Positions 10,289 through 29,739 of a stretch of DNA of 33,111 nt are shown here, piece by piece. The notes under the pieces are model-generated. The model had not been told where the DNA came from. It saw only the letters and a list, made by a program, of their open reading frames with translations, and did not search any database. Source of the stretch: Candidatus Cloacimonadota bacterium (GTDB lineage Bacteria > Cloacimonadota > Cloacimonadia > Cloacimonadales > TCS61); NCBI GenBank assembly GCA_021735645.1, contig JAIPGP010000041.1, positions 1-33,111 of the forward strand, in the 5' to 3' direction. The position numbers and the translations under genes are program-made. Positions within the stretch are counted from its first letter, which is position 1. Each line of letters begins with the position of its first letter.

Positions 10289-10386
10289 ATTAGAGAGACT
10301 AAACAAACAGCTAAGTTAACTAAAGTTATTGAGTTAAACTGTCACTGGAATAAAGGGATTGGGTAAATAGACATCATGGACTGGTT

Positions 10387-10476
10387 AGACAATATAGACA
10401 TTATAGACAATATAGACAATATAGACAATATAGACAATATAGACAATATAGACAATATAGACATTATAGACATTAT
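10387..10476. repeat. 9-bp minisatellite, ten tandem units
   Basis: Ten consecutive copies of AGACAATAT, with three units reading AGACATTAT, followed by a degenerate TGACAAGAT. It lies in the gap after the REC-PAS gene. Related 9-mers with GG in place of AG (ATTATGGAC) occur at 28325-28351 and 29415-29450. The unit has no evident coding role here because stops interrupt the surrounding frames. Confidence 0.95.
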
Positions 10477-10498
10477 TGACAAGATCACCTGATTGACT

Positions 10499-10828: not shown

Positions 10829-13800
10829 ATGAGAAAGAGTATTTTAATAGCTCTGATGCTGTCGATAGGAGTCTTATTGACTGGCAGTATGGGAGCTATA
10901 CCAGTATCTGGAGAAGTTACGGGGGTAACCTTAACAGAAGAAAGTGACAACAATCTGGGATTAAGTGTAAACATTAATGAGGTTGATTTTTTTGATGTGA
11001 GCACTCAGGCGGGTGAATTTGTAAATTTATCGATAGCGGGATTTACGAGTACAAATGAAATTGGTGCACCGCGATTACCAAAAGTACGCAGAATATTCAG
11101 TGTTCCAGTTGGAGCGGAAGTGAGTGTACGGGTAAATGATTTTCAAATTGAGCAGTATGAACTGGGAGCTTATGGAATAAGCAATCAGGTGATGCCGTCA
11201 CAGCCACCATTATCTAAGAGTGAAACTGCAGCTGATGTGGAATTTATTTATGATCCGGCGATTTACAGTCAGAATAGTTTTACTGAAATGGAACTGGCAA
11301 ATGTGGAGGAACTGGGTATTTTACGCGGGTTACGTTTATTTGTGGTGAATATTAATCCAGTGCGTTATAATCCGGTTACTAATGAGATACAGGTATATAC
11401 AGCGATAGATCTGAATATTGAATATACTGGTGGAGATGCACTGGCTACGGCAGAGCTTCGCAGCCGAACCTGGTCACCGGTTTTTGAACCTATCTATGCT
11501 CAGAAGGTGATAAATTATCACAGATATGAGATGCGTGATGATCTAACCCGCTATCCGATCAAATATGTGATCATTTCCGACCGGATGTTTGAAGATCAGT
11601 TAGCAGATTTTATTGACTGGAAGACAACACAGGGTTATGATGTAATAGTGAGCTATACTGATGAGATAGGCAGCACAACGAGTTTGATCCACAGTTATAT
11701 CGAGGGCTTATGGGATGAAGCATCTCCTGAAGACCCGGCACCCAGTTTTATACTATTTGTGGGAGACACTCAGCAGATACCGGCTTATAACGGCAGTGAG
11801 GGCAGTCATGTAACGGATTTGAATTATGTCCGTCTGGAAGGAACAGATTTCATGCCGGAAATCTATTATGGCAGATTCAGTGCCCAGAATACGGCTCAAT
11901 TACAGCCACAGATAGATAAGACCCTGGAATATGAGATGTATGCGATGGAAGATCCGAGCTATTTAAATGAAGTAGTAATGATAGCCGGTATGGATGCCAG
12001 TCATGGCAGCACCTGGGGCAATGGACAGATCAATTATGGGACAACTTATTATTTTAATGAAGCTCATGGTTTAACATCCCATACATATCTGTATCCGGAT
12101 TCTGGTAATAATGCAGCCAATATAGTTCAGGACGTGTCTGATGGAGTATCATATATCAATTATACAGCCCATGGCAGTCAGGATTCCTGGGCAGACCCAT
12201 CCTTTACGATCAGTAATGTAAATAGTCTTGAAAATGAAGGGGAGTATTGTTTTGCAGTAGCTAACTGCTGTTTGACTAATAAGTTTGAAGTAGGGACATG
12301 TTTTGGTGAAGCGTGGCTGCGGGCAGAGAATAAAGGTGCTATAGGCTACGTGGGTGGAACAAATTCCACTTACTGGGATCAGGATTACTGGTGGGGCGTT
12401 GGAGCTGGAGCAGTAGTGACTAATCCTACATATGAAACTACTGGTGCGGGAGCTTATGACGGGATGTGGCATGATCATGATGAAGAATTTCTGCAATGGT
12501 ACACAGTAGGTTTTGCCTATATTATGGCAGGTAATCTGGCAGTTGTAGAAGGCGGCAGCATGATGAATTATTACTGGGAGATATATGCTTTAATGGGAGA
12601 CCCATCCTTAAGTGTATTTTTCAGTGAAGCAGAAGAAAACGAAGCAGAATATCCGGAAGAATTACTTCTGGGATTAAATAGTATGGAAATAACCTGCGAG
12701 CCTTATTCTTATGTGGCATTAACTTATGATGGAGAGATCATGGGCGTGGGGCTTGTGGATGACAGCGGAGTTCTCAATCTGGAATATTTACCTTTTGATG
12801 AACCATGTATGGCAAATCTTACTATAACCGGACAGAATCTAATGCCAATAATCACACAGGTGCAGGTGATCCCTAATGAAGGTGCTTATCTGATACTTGA
12901 TGCTTATGAAGTGATGAGCGGAGGTGATGATGTGATCGATGGAGGTGAAAGTACCTCGATTTCACTGGATGTAGAGAATCTGGGAATGGAAGATGCAGAA
13001 GAGACAGTGATGACGATTGGCTGTGCAGATGAATATATAACTCTGGAAGAGACAAGTCTGAATCTGGGACTTATTCCGGCTCAGACACTGATGGAATTTA
13101 CCGAGTTGATCAATTTTGAAGTTTCGGAAGATATACCCTTTGGTCATCCGATCAGAATGGACCTGGAATTTACTACTGAGAGTGGGACCTGGTTGGAAGA
13201 GCTAAATCTTAGTGCTTATGCACCTCCGGGACTTTGGATAGACCCGGGGATGATCGAGGCTGAAGTTGACAGCACAGAAACATATACAACAACATTTGCG
13301 ATTTCAAATTATCTGGATGATCCCGTGGCTTACAGTATCAGAACGGAGTCAGATGATAGAGGTAGAGACCTGACAAACAGTTATATGGAATGCGATCATC
13401 ATCATTTTGAACCTGGCGAGCAATATCAATGGATAGTGACAGTGTATAATTTAACTCCCGACGGTGAGTGGATATCTGATGTAAGCGTCAGTCTGCCTGA
13501 AGGCGTATTTGTAGAAAACACTGGTCTGATGATAGGTGGCAGTGGAGGAGCGATGGAGCCGGATGTAACCAGTGGTGATGGGATCACAATCACCTGGCAT
13601 GGTGCAACTCCTTCCGGATACGGATATCTGCATGAAGGCCAATCTGCTGAGGCAGTGATTGTGCTTACAGTGGATGAAGCATATACGGGATACATTGTAT
13701 GTGATTATGAGTTAACCGGAGATAATTATGGAGCAGCACCGCATGTGATCAATGGCAGCTTTGAATTATCATATCCATTAAGCTGGATAAGTCTGGATAA

Positions 13801-14257
13801 TACAGAAGGTGAATTAGAATATGGACAGACAGACTTTATAGAAGTGAGCCTGAATCCCGAGGGAATGGAAGCCGGGACTTATGAATGTGAGATAGTGATA
13901 ACAGACAGCAGATTAGAAACCAGGATTCCTGTAACGATGGAGATCATGGGCACAAATGAAAATGATGGTGGAATCACAGGGTTAACTGCGTTATATGGTA
14001 ATTATCCTAATCCGTTTAATCCGGAAACAACCATATCTTATTCATTGGAACAGGCAGGAGCAGTAGTTCTGGAGATATTTAATATTAAGGGACAAAAGGT
14101 AGCCACACTTGTGAACAGTCAGCAGTCAACAGGAGCTCATCAAATAACATGGCAGGGAGAGGATGCAATGGGCACTGCTGTAGGAAGTGGAATATATCTA
14201 TATAGACTTCAAACCGGTGATCAGAGTTTTGCTGGTAAGATGATGCTGATGAAATAA
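10829..14257 (+). CDS. Secreted gingipain-like cysteine protease (peptidase C25) with type IX-like sorting domain
   Basis: 1142 residues. A signal peptide (basic MRKS, then a hydrophobic core to about 25) is followed by an inhibitory pro-region to about 230 and the C25 catalytic domain at about 235-600. H448 (TAHGS) and C481 (NCCLTNKF) are the likely catalytic pair; they lie 33 residues apart, the same spacing as His211 and Cys244 of mature RgpB. CFGEAWLRA follows, as in gingipains. Ig-like modules fill about 610-1040. The last ~90 residues (GNYPNPFNP, then EIFNIKGQKVATL, then GIYLYRLQTG) match the FlgD-like type A sorting domain used by type IX secretion. It is therefore probably exported and attached at the cell surface to degrade proteins. 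AAAGGAG precedes the ATG. Confidence 0.93.
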   Translation: MRKSILIALMLSIGVLLTGSMGAIPVSGEVTGVTLTEESDNNLGLSVNINEVDFFDVSTQAGEFVNLSIAGFTSTNEIGAPRLPKVRRIFSVPVGAEVSVRVNDFQIEQYELGAYGISNQVMPSQPPLSKSETAADVEFIYDPAIYSQNSFTEMELANVEELGILRGLRLFVVNINPVRYNPVTNEIQVYTAIDLNIEYTGGDALATAELRSRTWSPVFEPIYAQKVINYHRYEMRDDLTRYPIKYVIISDRMFEDQLADFIDWKTTQGYDVIVSYTDEIGSTTSLIHSYIEGLWDEASPEDPAPSFILFVGDTQQIPAYNGSEGSHVTDLNYVRLEGTDFMPEIYYGRFSAQNTAQLQPQIDKTLEYEMYAMEDPSYLNEVVMIAGMDASHGSTWGNGQINYGTTYYFNEAHGLTSHTYLYPDSGNNAANIVQDVSDGVSYINYTAHGSQDSWADPSFTISNVNSLENEGEYCFAVANCCLTNKFEVGTCFGEAWLRAENKGAIGYVGGTNSTYWDQDYWWGVGAGAVVTNPTYETTGAGAYDGMWHDHDEEFLQWYTVGFAYIMAGNLAVVEGGSMMNYYWEIYALMGDPSLSVFFSEAEENEAEYPEELLLGLNSMEITCEPYSYVALTYDGEIMGVGLVDDSGVLNLEYLPFDEPCMANLTITGQNLMPIITQVQVIPNEGAYLILDAYEVMSGGDDVIDGGESTSISLDVENLGMEDAEETVMTIGCADEYITLEETSLNLGLIPAQTLMEFTELINFEVSEDIPFGHPIRMDLEFTTESGTWLEELNLSAYAPPGLWIDPGMIEAEVDSTETYTTTFAISNYLDDPVAYSIRTESDDRGRDLTNSYMECDHHHFEPGEQYQWIVTVYNLTPDGEWISDVSVSLPEGVFVENTGLMIGGSGGAMEPDVTSGDGITITWHGATPSGYGYLHEGQSAEAVIVLTVDEAYTGYIVCDYELTGDNYGAAPHVINGSFELSYPLSWISLDNTEGELEYGQTDFIEVSLNPEGMEAGTYECEIVITDSRLETRIPVTMEIMGTNENDGGITGLTALYGNYPNPFNPETTISYSLEQAGAVVLEIFNIKGQKVATLVNSQQSTGAHQITWQGEDAMGTAVGSGIYLYRLQTGDQSFAGKMMLMK

Positions 14258-14269
14258 ATTTGAATTATT

Positions 14270-14300
14270 GAGCCGGTACAAAAGTGCCGGCTCTTATTTT
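14270..14300 (+). terminator. Hairpin between the two protease genes
   Basis: GAGCCGGTAC, loop AAAA, then GTGCCGGCTC (10-bp stem with one T-G wobble), followed by TTATTTT. The T-tract is interrupted and the ribosome binding site of the next gene begins right after it, so it may be a leaky terminator that lowers expression of the second protease. Confidence 0.75.
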
Positions 14301-14313
14301 ATGGAGGGTTGCA

Positions 14314-17300
14314 ATGAGAAGGCAAATAGTTCTATTAGTTTTAATATTTTTAAGTATTTTACTCTATGGCAGGGATTTCAACTGGGATAATAATGAATAC
14401 CGTGATGGTCTGCAAATATTAGAATCAGATGTAAACGGAGTAGTTCTCACCTGGTCAACATCATCTTTTAGTTTGAATGATATAGAGATCAATGGGATAA
14501 TAACTCAGGAATTAGTATTTGGAGACGAATTTTTACCCAATGATGCCGGCTGTCCGGATCTGCCAGGTATCAGCAGAATGATAGCAGTGCCGGAAGGAGC
14601 CGAGGTAAAATTAGACTATGAATATTTCAATGAAGAGATCATCAGAGGAGTAGACATTGCTCCTGCCCCGGTAATTCCGAAGGAAACAGAAGATGGACTG
14701 GAATATTTCCGGGGCAAGGCATATCAGCAGGATGAGCTTTATCCATCCGCAGTAAGTCAGATATCAGAAATTGATGAGATAAGGGGAGTGGATTATGTAA
14801 TGTTAGGTATTTCTCCTTTCCGTTATAATCCAATGCAGAAGGAATTGCACGTATATCGTGATATCAGGATAAGCCTTAGTTTTCAAGGTGGAAATGGCAG
14901 ATTTGGTGAAGATCGTCTGCGCAGTCGCTGGTGGGACCCTGTACTCAAGGGTATATTGTTAAACTGGGATAATCTGCCGGAACTCGATTATACACAAACC
15001 CAGTCACAACAGAGAACTCCTGATTATGAATATTTGATTATTAGTCCAACCGGAGAACCATTTGTTACCTGGGCAGACTCGATCAGAATATTCAGAACCC
15101 AACAGGGTATCAGAACCGGTATCGTTACACTGGCTGAGACTGGCAGCTCAAATGCTCAAATTGAAAATTATATAAATACTGCCTATAATACCTGGGATAT
15201 TCCACCGGTAGCGGTTTTATTTCTGGGAGATTATGGGACTAATGCTACAAACTCAGTGAGTAGCCCTACTTATAATAATTATTGCATTTCAGATAATATT
15301 TTTGCAGATATTACGGGTAATAATCTGCCGGATATCTCCACAGCGCGGATAACAGCCCGTACGGATGCTGAACTCGAATTGATGATCCATAAATTTATGG
15401 ACTATGAACGTAATCCGCCTACAAATGCAGGTTTTTATCAGAATCCTGTTATCGCTGGAGGCTGGCAGACCGAACGCTGGTTCATACTTGCTACTGAGGT
15501 TGTGAGAGGCTTCTGGAGCAATGTACTGGATAAAAGCCCGGTGCGCGAGTATGCTATTTATAGCGGAACTCCGGGAACAGTGTGGTCAACAGCCACTAAC
15601 ACCTCAACGGTAGTGAATTATTTTGGTAGTAGTGGTTTAGGCTATCTGGGTGCTTCTCCGCAAATTATTCCCAGTTGGAATGCCAATGCTGCCAGTATAA
15701 ATAATGATATTAATAATGGCTGCTTTATACTACAGCATCGGGATCATGGAGGCGAAACCGGGTGGGGAGAACCGGATTATGGTAATAGTGATCTGGGAGG
15801 ACTCAATAATGACGACCTTTCATTCATTTTCTCAACTAACTGTTTGACGGGTAAATTCAATTGGAGCAGTGAGTGCTTCACAGAAGCTTTACATCGCCAT
15901 GCTCGGGGAGCTTTGGGACTGATCGCAGCCACGGAAGTATCCTATTCATTCGTTAATGACACCTATATCTGGGGAACATATGATTATATGTGGCCTAACT
16001 TTGATCCGGGTCATGGGGCAGACGGTCAGAATTCGATTTTGCCCTGTTTTGCTAACAGCAGCGGGAAATGGTATCTGCAGGCAAGTAACTGGCCCTATAA
16101 TGGCGGGGATAAAGAGGTAACATATTATCTATTCCATCATCATGGAGATGCCTTCTCTACAGTATATACCTCGATGCCTGAGGAAATAGCTATCACTTAC
16201 CCTGAGGTGCTGCTGAGCGGAATGACCAGTGTGAACGTGACAGCAGAGGCAGGAACTTTTATCTGCTTATCAGTAGGAGATGAGATATTGGCTACAGCTG
16301 AGGGTAATGGCAGTCCGCAAAGTATCGTGATAGAATCTCAAACCCCATTGACTCTGGTACATTTGACAGCGACAAAGCAGGATTGCTATCGGGAAGAGGC
16401 AGATATATTGGTAATTCCTCCGGAAGGTGCTTATGCAGTTGTGAATAATGTGGAGATCAGCACAATTGATGATGATGTGATAGAGTATGCCGAAACTGTG
16501 GTCATGAGTGCATCAGTAGAGAATTTTGGCAGTGAGACAGCAGAGAATCTACTGATAACCATAAGCTGTAATGATCAATATATCACAATTACAGATAATA
16601 CAGAAACTGGAGTGCAGGTAGCAGCAGGTGAAACTCTGGTGCTGGCTGATGCTTTCAGTTTCACAGTTGCCCAGGATATACCAGATGAGCACAATTTCTA
16701 TTTTACTGCAATAGTCGCCAGTGATCAGGGCAGTTGGGAGAGTGCCATAAACCTGACCGGTTATGCACCTGTGATTGAGCTGAATGGTTTGAGCATTACC
16801 GGGGATACTAATTCCAATGGCAGACTTGATCCGGGTGAGACTGCGAACTTAAATATTGAGATACTGAATAGCGGTGGGGCAGACCTTTATAACATTGTAC
16901 CCCAGCTAAATGAGACCGACCAGTATTGTACAATAATCCAGAATGGCAGCAGCCTTGCGGAGATAGAAACAGGTGATAGTGGAGTATTCACTTATGAATT
17001 GGAAGTAGAAAATTCTGCTCCGGTAGGTCATGTGATCAGCTTTGATTTTACCTGTGAAGCGGATATGGATTATGGCATTCAAACATCATTTGCTCTTACT
17101 GTGGGATTGTGCCTGGAAGATTTTGAGAGTGCAGGATTCAGCCAGTATGACTGGATAATGAGCGGAACTGGTGGCTGGCAGATGAGTGGGGGCAGTTATG
17201 AAGGATCATATTGTGCCCAGTCAGCAAATATCAGCGATAGCCAGTCAGCAGGTATGGAAGTGGAAGTGAATGTATTGAGCCCGGATGACATCAGTTTCTA

Positions 17301-18741
17301 TTACAAAGTTTCATCCGAAAGTGGCTGGGATTATCTGAAATTTTATATTGATGGCACCCAGATAAATGACTGGAGCGGGACTATAGACTGGACGGAATAT
17401 TCCACACCGGTGAGTGTGGGAACGCATATTTTTAAGTGGGAATATTCTAAAGACAGTTCTGTGAGCAGTGGCAGTGACTGTGCCTGGATAGATTATATTG
17501 TATTCCCTCCGATCAATATTCCTCAACCAGCAGAGATGATACTTGATAATGAGCAATTTGCCTTTAATGTGCTGCCTCAAGGTAGTGATAGTGCAGAATT
17601 GCAGATAACTAATATCGGAGGAAGAGACCTGGAATGGTCTATAAGTAAAAATTATGCGATATCACGAGCCAGCGGTGGACCCGATAATTATGGCTATCAG
17701 TGGCTGGACAGTGATGAACCTGATGGACCAGACTTTAACTGGATAGACATTTCAGGTACGGGAACTCAGGTTGTATTCACCCATAACGATCAGGCAGAGG
17801 GTCCATATCCTATTGGCTTCGAATTTAATTTCTATGGTCAGCAATACAGTGAATTTATCATTAATGCCAATGGCTGGCTGGGTTTTGGTTCAGATAACAG
17901 TGGCTGGAGTAATAGTTCATTACCGGATAATGACGGACCTCGTCCGGCGATAATGGGATTTTGGGATGACCTGTATCCTGCCATTGGCGGCAGCGGTGAA
18001 GGAGAAGTATATTATCAGAGCTTCAATAATTATCTGGTGGTCATGTTTGACAATGTGCAGCACTATCCTGGTAATTATAATGGAAACTACACCTTTGAGA
18101 TGATAATTTATGCCAGTGGAGAAATACTGCTGCAATATGACGAAGTGAGTGGCGATACTGATAGCGGAACTGTCGGTATTCAGAATAATAATGCCAGCGA
18201 TGCTCTGCAGATAGTGTATAATGATAATTATGTGTCTGACAACCTGGCTGTTCGCATTCTGCAGGTAGTGGACTGGCTGGAATTGAGCCAGACTATTGGC
18301 TCAGTGCCTATGGGTAGTAATACGAGCATCACGCTCACAGTTGATGCAGAAGATCTGGAAATAGGTGATTATCTCTGCAATCTGGTATTAAACAGTAATG
18401 ATCCGCAGCAGGGCGAACTGGAAATCCCGGTAAACCTTATGGTTGGAGGTGAAATCGCTTATGGTGATATTGATGATAATGGTGTAGTAGATGCTTTTGA
18501 TGCTGCCATTGCATTACAGTATTTTGTGGATATTGATCCGCCGGCAGCACCATTACCCTGGGCAATATGGCGTATATGGAGGGCAGATGTTGATGGAAAT
18601 GGAGCTGTGGAAGCCTATGATGCCTCTTTGATCCAGCAATATTCGGTAGGTCTTATCTCGGTATTCCCTGTGGAAGTTCCCAGAACAAATATTTCGCGGA
18701 AGAAGACTCAGGATATAAAAAGTAAAAAAAGTTTAGATTAA
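14314..18741 (+). CDS. Secreted gingipain-like protease (C25) ending in a dockerin-like Ca-binding pair
   Basis: 1475 residues from the ATG at 14314, which has GGAGGG in front. An in-frame GTG at 14284 is possible, but it lies within the upstream hairpin. A signal peptide (MRRQIVLLVLIFLSILLYG) and pro-region precede a C25 domain with likely catalytic H478 (RDHGGE) and C510 (TNCLTGKF). CFTEALHRHARGALG follows, as in the first protease. After Ig-like modules comes a jelly-roll-like segment (about 930-1070). The end (about 1382-1450) has two calcium-loop repeats, DIDDNGVVDAFDAA and DVDGNGAVEAYDAS, typical of dockerin type I. Unlike its neighbour it lacks the YPNPFNP sorting domain and ends in a basic Lys/Arg-rich tail. 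It may dock to a cohesin-like partner or use a different exit route. Confidence 0.92.
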   Translation: MRRQIVLLVLIFLSILLYGRDFNWDNNEYRDGLQILESDVNGVVLTWSTSSFSLNDIEINGIITQELVFGDEFLPNDAGCPDLPGISRMIAVPEGAEVKLDYEYFNEEIIRGVDIAPAPVIPKETEDGLEYFRGKAYQQDELYPSAVSQISEIDEIRGVDYVMLGISPFRYNPMQKELHVYRDIRISLSFQGGNGRFGEDRLRSRWWDPVLKGILLNWDNLPELDYTQTQSQQRTPDYEYLIISPTGEPFVTWADSIRIFRTQQGIRTGIVTLAETGSSNAQIENYINTAYNTWDIPPVAVLFLGDYGTNATNSVSSPTYNNYCISDNIFADITGNNLPDISTARITARTDAELELMIHKFMDYERNPPTNAGFYQNPVIAGGWQTERWFILATEVVRGFWSNVLDKSPVREYAIYSGTPGTVWSTATNTSTVVNYFGSSGLGYLGASPQIIPSWNANAASINNDINNGCFILQHRDHGGETGWGEPDYGNSDLGGLNNDDLSFIFSTNCLTGKFNWSSECFTEALHRHARGALGLIAATEVSYSFVNDTYIWGTYDYMWPNFDPGHGADGQNSILPCFANSSGKWYLQASNWPYNGGDKEVTYYLFHHHGDAFSTVYTSMPEEIAITYPEVLLSGMTSVNVTAEAGTFICLSVGDEILATAEGNGSPQSIVIESQTPLTLVHLTATKQDCYREEADILVIPPEGAYAVVNNVEISTIDDDVIEYAETVVMSASVENFGSETAENLLITISCNDQYITITDNTETGVQVAAGETLVLADAFSFTVAQDIPDEHNFYFTAIVASDQGSWESAINLTGYAPVIELNGLSITGDTNSNGRLDPGETANLNIEILNSGGADLYNIVPQLNETDQYCTIIQNGSSLAEIETGDSGVFTYELEVENSAPVGHVISFDFTCEADMDYGIQTSFALTVGLCLEDFESAGFSQYDWIMSGTGGWQMSGGSYEGSYCAQSANISDSQSAGMEVEVNVLSPDDISFYYKVSSESGWDYLKFYIDGTQINDWSGTIDWTEYSTPVSVGTHIFKWEYSKDSSVSSGSDCAWIDYIVFPPINIPQPAEMILDNEQFAFNVLPQGSDSAELQITNIGGRDLEWSISKNYAISRASGGPDNYGYQWLDSDEPDGPDFNWIDISGTGTQVVFTHNDQAEGPYPIGFEFNFYGQQYSEFIINANGWLGFGSDNSGWSNSSLPDNDGPRPAIMGFWDDLYPAIGGSGEGEVYYQSFNNYLVVMFDNVQHYPGNYNGNYTFEMIIYASGEILLQYDEVSGDTDSGTVGIQNNNASDALQIVYNDNYVSDNLAVRILQVVDWLELSQTIGSVPMGSNTSITLTVDAEDLEIGDYLCNLVLNSNDPQQGELEIPVNLMVGGEIAYGDIDDNGVVDAFDAAIALQYFVDIDPPAAPLPWAIWRIWRADVDGNGAVEAYDASLIQQYSVGLISVFPVEVPRTNISRKKTQDIKSKKSLD

Positions 18742-26918: not shown

Positions 26919-27098
26919 AAAGAGCACAGAGGGCGCAGAGGTAAGAAGATGTGACGATGGGACGATGGGACTATGCGTAGTACAATACAATCAGTGAGAC
27001 GGGAGAAGGGAGACGGGAGAAGTGAAATGTGAACAGTGAAAATGCAAAAATGAGAAACTGCGAAACTGAGAAACTGAGAAACTGCGAAACTGCGTACC

Positions 27099-27116
27099 CA
27101 GACCATCCCTGGTCTG
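27099..27116. repeat. Perfect hairpin CAGACCA-TCCC-TGGTCTG
   Basis: 7-bp stem with a 4-base loop at the start of the first 63-bp repeat unit. The right arm recurs in the other two units but the left arm does not. No T-run follows on either strand. Confidence 0.8.
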
Positions 27117-27246
27117 ATTACATTACATTCCATTTTCCATTTTCAATTTTCAATTTTACATTACTATCTCCCTGGTCTGATTACATTACATTGAATTTTA
27201 CATTTTCAATTTTCAATTTTCAATTACTATCTCCCTGGTCTGATTA
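27107..27246 (+). repeat. 63-bp tandem repeat, two full units and a partial third
   Basis: CCCTGGTCTGATTA starts at 27107, 27170 and 27233, exactly 63 bases apart. After each marker comes TTACATT-type and CATTTTCAATTTT-type sequence that differs slightly between units. Because 63 is divisible by three, one frame stays open across all units. Confidence 0.95.
27193..27225 (+). repeat. Word block A, left copy (inverted partner at 28093-28125)
   Basis: A run of CATTTTCAATTTTCAATTTT type. Its reverse complement occurs at 28093-28125 with about two differences over 33 bases. Confidence 0.75.
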
Positions 27247-27253
27247 CATTCCC

Positions 27254-27280
27254 ATTCACTGTTCACTAATCACTGTTCAC
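27254..27280 (+). repeat. Word block B, left copy (inverted partner at 28144-28170)
   Basis: ATTCACTGTTCACTAATC and following bases. The reverse complement of 28144-28170 matches it at 25 of 27 positions. Confidence 0.85.
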
Positions 27281-27310
27281 GATTAACGACTCATAATTCA
27301 AAATTAAAAA

Positions 27311-27331
27311 GGGGGCTTTCGCCCCCATTTT
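27311..27331 (-). terminator. Strong terminator of the 159-residue gene
   Basis: On the minus strand GGGGGC, GAAA tetraloop, GCCCCC, then TTTTT. The stem starts 5 bases after the stop codon. On the plus strand it is followed by ATTTTTT, so it can work in both directions. Confidence 0.93.
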
Positions 27332-27811
27332 TTAAACAGTCTCTATAGAGCTGTCCAAGGTTTCAAGGTCAAGACCGCAAGCCGGCATACCGGCAGCGGT
27401 GATCAGATTTCCTACATTTGGCTCTGCGGTGCCCAGCAGGTCGCCAGCCTCACCACCGAAATTATCCACAGTAAGTGTGGAAATATCAAAGGCAGAGAGC
27501 TTAGCAACTGCAAAGCAGGCTTTGAGGAAGATATTGAGCTTGTTGTAAGGGATTTGAGTGCGTCCATCAAGCTGGGTCTCGTTCCAGGCTTGCGTATAGG
27601 TGATGATGTCATTAATGAATCCTTCGGAAGCATCCTTCCAGGTATCGATAACAGCGGTTGTTTTGGAGGCGAATGCGGCTTCGCCTGTCGGATTATCGGG
27701 TACAGTGTATTGACATAGAAAAGTGACATCAAGGTCATGCCAGCCATAAGCCACTTTTTCTCCATCACGACCAGTTACGGTGCGATACGGGGTTACTAAT
27801 GTTGCTTTCAT
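27332..27811 (-). CDS. Unrecognised 159-residue protein with strong expression signals
   Basis: I do not recognise this protein. It is soluble-looking, without signal peptide or membrane helix, acidic overall, with a Thr/Asp/Gly-rich start (MKATLVTPYRTVTGRDGEKV), a helical-looking middle (AVIDTWKDASEGFINDIITY; KLNIFLKACFAVAKL) and an acidic end (LDLETLDSSIETV). Three Cys are present (C33, C114 and C145). Its expression signals are unusually complete: TTGACA-17-TATATT promoter, a leader of about 77 bases, a full AAGGAGG site and a perfect GC terminator. This predicts a plentiful single-gene transcript. It stands alone in repeat-rich DNA, bracketed by related word blocks on both sides. A structural or surface-associated role is one guess; there is no direct evidence. 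Confidence 0.82.
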   Translation of the reverse strand: MKATLVTPYRTVTGRDGEKVAYGWHDLDVTFLCQYTVPDNPTGEAAFASKTTAVIDTWKDASEGFINDIITYTQAWNETQLDGRTQIPYNKLNIFLKACFAVAKLSAFDISTLTVDNFGGEAGDLLGTAEPNVGNLITAAGMPACGLDLETLDSSIETV

Positions 27812-27814
27812 AAT

Positions 27815-27828
27815 GAAAGCCTCCTTTC
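27815..27828 (-). promoter_or_regulatory. Ribosome binding site held in a small hairpin
   Basis: On the minus strand GAAAG-GAGG-CTTTC: the Shine-Dalgarno core AAGGAGG forms part of the left stem and the whole loop of a 5-bp hairpin, 3 bases before the ATG. The stem is weak, so it may only tune translation, for example with temperature or a bound factor. Confidence 0.5.
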
Positions 27829-27894
27829 GAATTAATGTTTAGGTTTGATCAGAACCAAACATCATTCATTTAATTTAAGTAAGCTTACGGGGAT

Positions 27895-27923
27895 AATATA
27901 AAACGATAGTATTATTATGTCAA
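27895..27923 (-). promoter_or_regulatory. Near-consensus sigma-70-type promoter
   Basis: On the minus strand TTGACA (27918-27923), exactly 17 bases, TATATT (27895-27900). The -35 matches 6 of 6 and the -10 matches 5 of 6. The start point should lie near 27888, giving a leader of about 77 bases to the 159-residue gene. Confidence 0.8.
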
Positions 27924-28092
27924 GTAAAATATTAATACAAGTGTATATTTTTTTAGCATGAAACTGGTGATTTTTGCTGTGAATGGCTTATTATTGTTGT
28001 AAATGGTTTAATTACAGGTATTAAGCATGATATTTGTCAAAGATTTACAGTGAACCCACAGGGAAGCCACAGGGGGGGGCAGGCGGAGCCTG

Positions 28093-28125
28093 AATTGAAA
28101 ATTAAAAATTGAAAATGTAAAATTG
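28093..28125 (-). repeat. Word block A', inverted copy
   Basis: Its reverse complement matches 27193-27225 with about two differences over 33 bases. Confidence 0.75.
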
Positions 28126-28143
28126 AATGTTAATTTTTAATAT

Positions 28144-28170
28144 GTGAACAGTGATTAGTGAATGGTGAAT
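28144..28170 (-). repeat. Word block B', inverted copy
   Basis: Its reverse complement matches 27254-27280 at 25 of 27 bases. Confidence 0.85.
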
Positions 28171-28228
28171 TGGAATGTAATGTAATGCAATGTAATGTAA
28201 GATATTTAGCCGCGAACAAACGCGAACA

Positions 28229-28263
28229 AGCGCGAACTAATGTAATGTGAAGATATTTACCAC
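28229..28263 (+). repeat. Direct repeat C, right copy
   Basis: Matches 26883-26918 apart from a two-base deletion (GAACTAATG against GAACTGGAATG) and one or two changes near the start. Confidence 0.85.
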
Positions 28264-28324
28264 CATAGTAAAAAACACGGATCGACATGGTCGGCAGAAG
28301 CACTGAAAAGGCTATATAATGGGC

Positions 28325-28351
28325 TTTATGGACATTATGGACATTATAGAC
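28325..28351. repeat. 9-mer array, three units
   Basis: TTTATGGAC, ATTATGGAC, ATTATAGAC. It is a short relative of the ten-unit array at 10387-10476 and directly precedes composite repeat copy 1. Confidence 0.85.
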
Positions 28352-28362
28352 TGATAATTAAA

Positions 28363-28398
28363 TAATTATCGGAGTGGAAATCAGGAACTTTTTGAAAA
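28363..28398 (+). repeat. Composite repeat, copy 1 (partial)
   Basis: Core AATTATCGGAGTGGAAATC followed by an AACTTTTTGAAAA-like end. Shares its core with copies at 28926-28980 and 29462-29516. Confidence 0.75.
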
Positions 28399-28579
28399 CT
28401 GATACTTTTTAGAAAATGGGGTTATTTAAAATGGTTTGTGGATATTGAGTAGATAATTAGATAATTAAGGAAAGGAGAAATTTGAAATATTATTACATTG
28501 ACATAAACACATAATTCTCATTTTTAATTAATTCATTAATAAATGTAATTTTGTGATCTACGTAGAAAAGGAGTTTTTT

Positions 28580-28780
28580 ATGGAATTAGTATGGGAATTC
28601 ATTTCAGGAATTTATATCGGTCATGATGGAAGGTCATACAAATCAGTATCAATTCAGAGAGCAAAAGTTCCTGGAGGTTGGATAATTAGGTTAATATACG
28701 GTAAAGATAGTGGTGGTTTGGGAGGTTTAACCTTTTACCCTGATCCTCTTCATAAGTGGGATGGGAATTCGCTACCATAG
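28580..28780 (+). CDS. Unrecognised 66-residue protein
   Basis: From the ATG at 28580 (AAAAGGAG just upstream) to TAG at 28778. An in-frame GTG at 28553 would add nine residues but lies ahead of that ribosome binding site, so I prefer the ATG. The protein reads as a small beta-rich domain: WEFISGIYIGHDGRSYKSV, then IQRAKVPGGWIIRLIYGKD, and a Gly/Pro/Trp-rich end (GGLTFYPDPLHKWDGN). There is no signal peptide or membrane helix. The aromatic and glycine pattern looks like genuine protein, and codon use is not that of the repeats around it. I do not recognise a family. It stands alone; a small regulatory or toxin-antitoxin role cannot be shown. Confidence 0.65.
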   Translation: MELVWEFISGIYIGHDGRSYKSVSIQRAKVPGGWIIRLIYGKDSGGLGGLTFYPDPLHKWDGNSLP

Positions 28781-28925
28781 CATAAATCTGAAATTCATAA
28801 AATCGAAAAGTATTTTAACAGTCAATAACTTACAAAAATACTCCTAATAGAAAGGTGTATGTGGTGTGTTGTTGCTCAGGCTCTGTATCGATTATCACTC
28901 TATCAACCCAGATAATCTATTTAAA

Positions 28926-28980
28926 GGCTGGGTGAATTATTGAATTATCGGAGTGGAAATCGGAAACTATTTTGCGAAAT
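28926..28980 (+). repeat. Composite repeat, copy 2
   Basis: AGGCTGGGTGAATTATTG, then AATTATCGGAGTGGAAATC and GGAAACTATTTTGCGAAAT. About 55 bases, highly similar to 29462-29516. Confidence 0.85.
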
Positions 28981-29200
28981 CACTATGGGATATATCAACC
29001 ACGGAACACACTGAACACACGGAAAATGTATTCTTTATGCGTGATTGGGAAAAGAGGTGATGGGTGAATGGGGGAAATCGAAACTCGGAACTTGGGGGAA
29101 TACAGGATATATTCTTTTTCTTTGCAGGGTCTTTATTAATCATTATAGAATTATATAGTGTTTAATCTTTTTGGGGAGAGATTGAGAGAAGATATATATA

Positions 29201-29235
29201 CTACTACTACTAAATAATAATAATAATAATAAATA
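29201..29235. repeat. Trinucleotide microsatellite
   Basis: Four CTA units followed by a run of about seven ATA-type triplets. It follows a short TA run and lies in non-coding DNA. Confidence 0.9.
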
Positions 29236-29414
29236 AAAGATAAGAGAGAATATGTTTTGAGAAAATAGTTTGTGATTTGGGGGGAGATAATTCAATAATT
29301 CAGATTTTTCTGGAGGATAAATAATGGGTTGAAGAATAGAACGCTGACGCAACTGATTGGACGGATTGGGCGGATTTACGCGGATAATGGGTTTATTTAT
29401 GGGGGATTTTGGTC

Positions 29415-29450
29415 TGGATGGACATTATGGACTTAATGGACTTTATGGAC
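29415..29450. repeat. 9-mer array, four units
   Basis: TGGATGGAC, ATTATGGAC, TTAATGGAC, TTTATGGAC. It lies 11 bases before composite repeat copy 3, as the array at 28325 lies before copy 1. Confidence 0.85.
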
Positions 29451-29461
29451 GATAATCTGGT

Positions 29462-29516
29462 GGCTGGGTGAATTATTGAATTATCGGGGTGGAAAACGGT
29501 AACTATTTTATGAAAT
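29462..29516 (+). repeat. Composite repeat, copy 3
   Basis: GGCTGGGTGAATTATTG, AATTATCGGGGTGGAAAAC, GGTAACTATTTTATGAAAT. Same order of parts as copy 2. Confidence 0.85.
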
Positions 29517-29651
29517 GAGAAGATTTTTTTAGCACCGAACAAAACTAACAAAACCAACTGGCATTAAATTATTACCAGATAGTGATTTTATCTTCTCAAT
29601 TAATCTCATTTTCGCATCTTCGTCTTACTAACCTTCAAACCCTCTAACTTT

Positions 29652-29675
29652 CGGACTTTCGGACTTTCGGACTTT
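29652..29675. repeat. 8-bp tandem repeat, three units
   Basis: CGGACTTT three times exactly, flanked by similar but diverged AACTTT and CAAACCTTCG words. Non-coding. Confidence 0.9.
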
Positions 29676-29739
29676 CAAACCTTCGCATCTTCACCCCTTC
29701 TTTTCTTCTCCTCTTCGATTTCACCCATCACCAGACTTA

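Follow-up and report, generated by a model that had tools for sequence, protein, structure and literature searches.

The second of two neighbouring gingipain-type (C25) proteases in a Candidatus Cloacimonadota genome, P0002, is in our reading a secreted enzyme that is held non-covalently on the cell surface: its dockerin would sit in the cohesin of a scaffoldin bearing a type IX secretion system (T9SS) tail, and the C-terminal tails of such proteases would be exchangeable labels. We put the probability of this reading at about 0.8. It draws on domains, their co-occurrence, gene clusters, the mosaic structure of P0002 and changes of label among related proteases, all of them observed in sequences. 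Positions refer to the window, i.e. the whole stretch of 33,111 nucleotides that was analysed.

The calcium-binding C-terminal dockerin of P0002 would plug into a cohesin of a large scaffoldin, whose own T9SS sorting domain would carry the scaffoldin across the outer membrane and fix it there. P0001, the first protease, bears the sorting domain itself, as do most of the genome's remaining C25 proteases. Sorting tail and dockerin would be alternative address labels that recombination attaches to one and the same set of protease bodies. Dockerin-cohesin binding, a location at the surface and protein degradation for nutrition are inferred.

Table 1. Features of the tandem locus in the window, and cohesin proteins and a cohesin cluster elsewhere in the genome
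Feature	Position	Strand	Description
P0001	10829..14257	+	Kgp-like C25 protease, 1142 aa; Sec-like signal, propeptide, catalytic domain, C25 Ig domain, T9SS type A sorting tail
P0001 catalytic domain	11564..12613	+	H448, C481
P0001 T9SS sorting domain	13997..14254	+	YPNPFNP at residue 1059
Terminator-like hairpin between P0001 and P0002	14270..14293	+	10-bp stem, 4-nt loop, then TTATTTTAT
P0002	14314..18741	+	C25 protease, 1475 aa from ATG; terminal dockerin, without sorting tail
P0002 catalytic domain	15031..16149	+	H488/C520 from GTG = H478/C510 from ATG
P0002 tail cassette	17518..18738	+	residues 1079-1485 from GTG
P0002 predicted type I dockerin	18460..18642	+	two calcium loops and helices; linker with PLPW
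Terminator-like hairpin after P0002	18747..18771	+	
C43_20595			2984 aa; 8 cohesins and T9SS tail
C110_18743			2358 aa; 5 cohesins and T9SS tail
C98_15581			4752 aa; 4 cohesins and T9SS tail
C69_348	L061:348-4139		C10 (streptopain-type) protease with inhibitor propeptide, 2 cohesins and T9SS tail
C130_11722			1 cohesin and T9SS tail
C98_3			9 cohesins; gene interrupted by contig end
C130_12774			154-aa cohesin protein without sorting tail
PAD cluster	L047:11722-14920		dockerin-bearing PAD, then two small cohesin proteins, the second T9SS-tailed

Two C25 proteases with different C-termini

The original prediction of two adjacent C25 proteases with a common pro-region and catalytic layout was borne out. 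Both open reading frames are present (Table 1), and Pfam recognised Propeptide_C25 and Peptidase_C25 in each. In P0001 these domains span residues 48-209 and 246-595 (E 9e-63) and are accompanied by Peptidase_C25_C; in P0002 the Peptidase_C25 match (E 8e-45) is followed by a long middle stretch and by Dockerin_1 at 1393-1453. The catalytic pairs had been placed correctly, the P0002 numbers fitting a start at ATG 14314. The ORF list gives GTG 14284 for this gene, but ATG 14314 is the likelier start because it is preceded by GGAGG.

Propeptide and catalytic His-Cys pair place both proteins in the C25 (gingipain) family, and proteolysis after Arg/Lys is predicted for P0001. Kgp aligned across P0001 residues 236-680 (E 4e-81), with P0001 D389, T446 and D519 opposite Kgp D388, T442 and D516, which in this numbering we take to be catalytic and S1-pocket residues. 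Since P0001 retains them, a preference for cleavage after Lys is predicted. P0002 is more distant from Kgp than P0001 and gave no clear alignment at the Kgp-type S1 residues. Like Kgp and RgpB of Porphyromonas gingivalis, both proteins have a propeptide, a catalytic domain and the His/Cys pair, and P0001 alone also shares the C25 Ig domain and the T9SS tail. Unlike these gingipains, P0002 ends in a dockerin, and the surroundings of the catalytic His differ (HRDHGG versus NYTAHG).

The two C-termini likewise proved to be as first described. The P0001 tail, with its YPNPFNP motif, scored 40.4 bits with Por_Secre_tail/TIGR04183 (cut-off 23). On P0002, PF00404 (Dockerin_1) reached 30.1 bits (cut-off 22.9), and no T9SS C-terminal sorting domain was found with Pfam, TIGR04183 or home-made models. 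A 14-row model built from this genome's dockerins, that of P0002 among them, gave 123 bits. In a comparison with solved dockerins both calcium-loop repeats could be aligned (4uyp_B, E 1e-12), which speaks against unrelated EF-hand loops; they also align with repeats of 8x39, a chain deposited as serine protease. An AlphaFold model from three input sequences was unusable (pLDDT 39.8), and support for the dockerin comes from sequence comparison. P0002 appears to end in a genuine type I dockerin.

Cohesins, dockerins and scaffoldins

In the whole genome (3.77 Mb, 151 contigs) Pfam found 21 cohesin matches on six contigs, 18 of them over the cut-off, and the absence of cohesin-like proteins that would have spoken against docking does not apply. 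The same genome has 32 Pfam dockerin matches (40, two of them partial, by a model from 14 of its own dockerins) and 44 C25 matches. The search for type IX secretion genes that had been proposed yielded the SprA translocon (449 bits, cut-off 200) and two PorU-like proteins (C48, 384 bits; C150, 263 bits), both under the cut-off of 420. SprA was also over the cut-off in 9/9 relatives examined.

Protein-level counts were obtained from 1.0 Mb of genome stretches scanned with home-made models. Among 35 dockerin proteins, 14 are also T9SS-tailed, whereas the other 21 lack such a tail and have the dockerin at or near their end; eight are C25 proteases, three of which also have the tail. The consensus sequences of dockerins with and without a T9SS tail are much alike, with no clear split into specificity classes. 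Most dockerin proteins start with a Sec-like signal, as judged by eye. The cargo includes C25, M14, GH18, GH57 and PAD; no cellulase turned up in those dockerin proteins that were scanned with Pfam.

The cohesins lie on proteins with up to nine copies, for the most part large scaffoldins with a T9SS tail (Table 1; C98_15581 was identified by home-made models only), and the protease C69_348 doubles as a scaffold. With several-cohesin scaffoldins and several dockerin-tagged enzymes in one genome, the system would be cellulosome-like.

Cohesin and dockerin genes also stand together in conserved clusters. At C110:5238-25819 the gene order is C25-dockerin-CTD, C25-dockerin, dockerin-CTD, scaffoldin. 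The order is identical in G088; G083 has it with an extra C25-dockerin gene, its first gene being cut off at the stretch boundary with the C25 part not visible; G089 has the first three genes. In a second cluster, shared by G000, G083, G088 and G089, a dockerin gene precedes one gene with cohesin only and then one with cohesin and CTD. The dockerin gene of this cluster in G000, the only genome scanned for PAD, encodes a Porphyromonas-type peptidyl-arginine deiminase according to Pfam. In more distant relatives, single proteases combine C25, cohesin and dockerin (G060 L162 by Pfam; G117 L165, with the cohesin found by the home-made model only).

Distribution in the phylum

Among 125 genomes of the phylum surveyed (matches at E 0.001), cohesins were matched in 68 and dockerins in 70. 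In seven of the genomes the dockerins number 21 to 45, with Pfam cohesins ranging from 22 down to 1. At the lower end, 24 dockerins face one Pfam cohesin in G117 and 21 face two in G092. These imbalances, together with the many dockerin proteins that have no T9SS tail, would fit a C-terminal dockerin that acts as a stabilising calcium module or as an export label and not as a docking plug. We consider this unlikely: dockerins and cohesins expand together in the organism's own genus (32/21, 39/22 and 33/14), they share gene clusters, and in G117 a model built from this genome's cohesins detects more of them than Pfam. An opposite imbalance was seen in G116, with 23 cohesin matches versus only 4 dockerins.

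Exchange of C-terminal labels

Over its body, P0002 shares 47% identity with C122_28625, a T9SS-tailed (CTD-type) protein. The last ~400 residues of P0002 match the dockerin-C25 protein C110_9189 (55% identity), although the bodies of these two are only 24% identical. The switch lies near residue 1080-1100, making P0002 a mosaic in which a CTD-type body is joined to a dockerin tail cassette of 400 residues.

A tree of 36 C25 domains from this genome, labelled with three tail states, requires 7 label changes, and branches with good support force at least 6 of them; with random labels the average was 7.8. When relatives were included (52 rows) we counted 15 changes, at least 10 of them forced for the CTD label, against a shuffled mean of 18.8 for all three labels. 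The relatives' rows were drawn from loci chosen for dockerins, which makes the count from this genome alone the cleaner of the two. The C-terminal label thus appears decoupled from the catalytic lineage and distributed like random labels, which, like the mosaic structure of P0002, is new here.

Export of dockerin proteins

According to PMC11285876, export by the T9SS both requires the T9SS tail and needs nothing beyond it. As 21 of the 35 dockerin proteins have no such tail, these would either take another route or use a carrier. Type II secretion was considered as an obvious route and rejected: no canonical system was found in the genome at curated cut-offs, although a related machine is possible. 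There are two secretins (173 and 74 bits with the GspD model, cut-off 351), one of them in a PilM/PilB-type cluster, and the GspG model gave 47 bits (cut-off 89). Tentatively, and with the odds against it, dockerin enzymes without a T9SS tail might ride through the SprA pore bound to a T9SS-tailed scaffoldin, the dockerin serving as plug and as indirect export ticket.

The missing outer-membrane export tail, together with the small cohesin protein C130_12774 that has no sorting tail either, could also mean that dockerin proteins are periplasmic and held there by cohesin proteins. We regard this as very improbable, since T9SS tails are found on the scaffoldins and on proteases closely related to these C25 bodies, and since chitinase, GH57 and carboxypeptidases among the cargo suggest extracellular use.

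The tandem pair and its surroundings

The tandem with both labels is kept in a related genus: in a Cloacimonadota MAG (L091 = G083:C35) the two proteins are 69% and 71% identical to P0001 and P0002. Despite this conserved order and the adjacency of the genes, there is hardly any prospect that the pair itself forms the complex originally envisaged, P0001 anchored and P0002 docked on it: P0001 has no cohesin by Pfam or by a model built from the genome's own cohesins, the hairpin at 14270-14293 separates the genes, and ~40 dockerins compete for the cohesins. What stands of that proposal is docking to a cohesin-bearing surface protein, which is consistent with the dockerin, the cohesins and the T9SS in one genome and with cohesins on T9SS-tailed proteins; P0001 as the partner is not supported. 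The better statement is that P0002 would dock on one of the genome's separate scaffoldins. Within the window, no cohesin gene was seen beside P0001 and P0002.

In Ca. Stygibacter frigidus (L092) a sequence is 86% identical to P0002 across 702 residues. An apparent dockerin gain at the P0001 locus of this organism was set aside as a hint only, because the two ends of the contig share the same 127 bases and P0002-like sequence runs into P0001-like sequence on it; a paralogue or an assembly join is possible.

Two repeat regions were noted in the window. About 11 copies of the 9-bp repeat TAGACAATA lie at 10386-10482, in non-coding sequence upstream of P0001, and a long gene-poor stretch at 26948-29726 is rich in short tandem repeats, one of them with a 63-bp unit (27106-27258).

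Relation to known systems

The combination of dockerin-C25 and tailed scaffoldin was published in outline in 2021 for Ca. Stygibacter, and the present system is a further member. There, dockerins were reported on a GH18 chitinase, GH57, a serine peptidase and a gingipain-like C25 peptidase, together with a 3755-aa scaffoldin-like protein whose C-terminal domain was inferred to mediate surface attachment (Williams et al. 2021, PMC8542988). Both systems share this dockerin cargo and a large cohesin scaffoldin with a C-terminal sorting domain, and the organisms, judged by the P0002 relatives L091 and L092, probably belong to the same or a neighbouring genus. One scaffoldin and few enzymes were named there, whereas we find ~40 dockerins and several scaffoldins, in addition to proteins with both dockerin and T9SS tail, cohesin-bearing proteases, conserved clusters, tail shuffling and the question of how dockerin proteins are exported. 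Outside that study, our literature search, which left subscription journals mostly uncovered, returned no other paper with both 'dockerin' and 'peptidase C25'.

With the clostridial cellulosome (type I cohesin-dockerin) the system shares, as far as genes alone tell, the two-repeat dockerin, a multi-cohesin scaffoldin and dockerin-tagged hydrolases. It differs in its T9SS host, the T9SS-tailed scaffoldin and a protease-rich cargo without cellulase among the dockerin proteins scanned with Pfam. For the Planctosome of Nemodlikiaceae (PMC6461901), too, a cohesin-dockerin complex that breaks down peptides has been proposed, and it includes M14 carboxypeptidases; unlike here, no gingipain or C25 is mentioned in that paper, and anchoring was proposed via a lamin tail domain.

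The T9SS sorting tail and the dockerin, each well studied as an address system, are tied here to one protease family in one genome. The tails are seen exchanged between bodies, and the export of dockerin proteins without a T9SS tail becomes a testable question. If such proteins did ride through SprA on their scaffoldin, the T9SS could export pre-assembled complexes.
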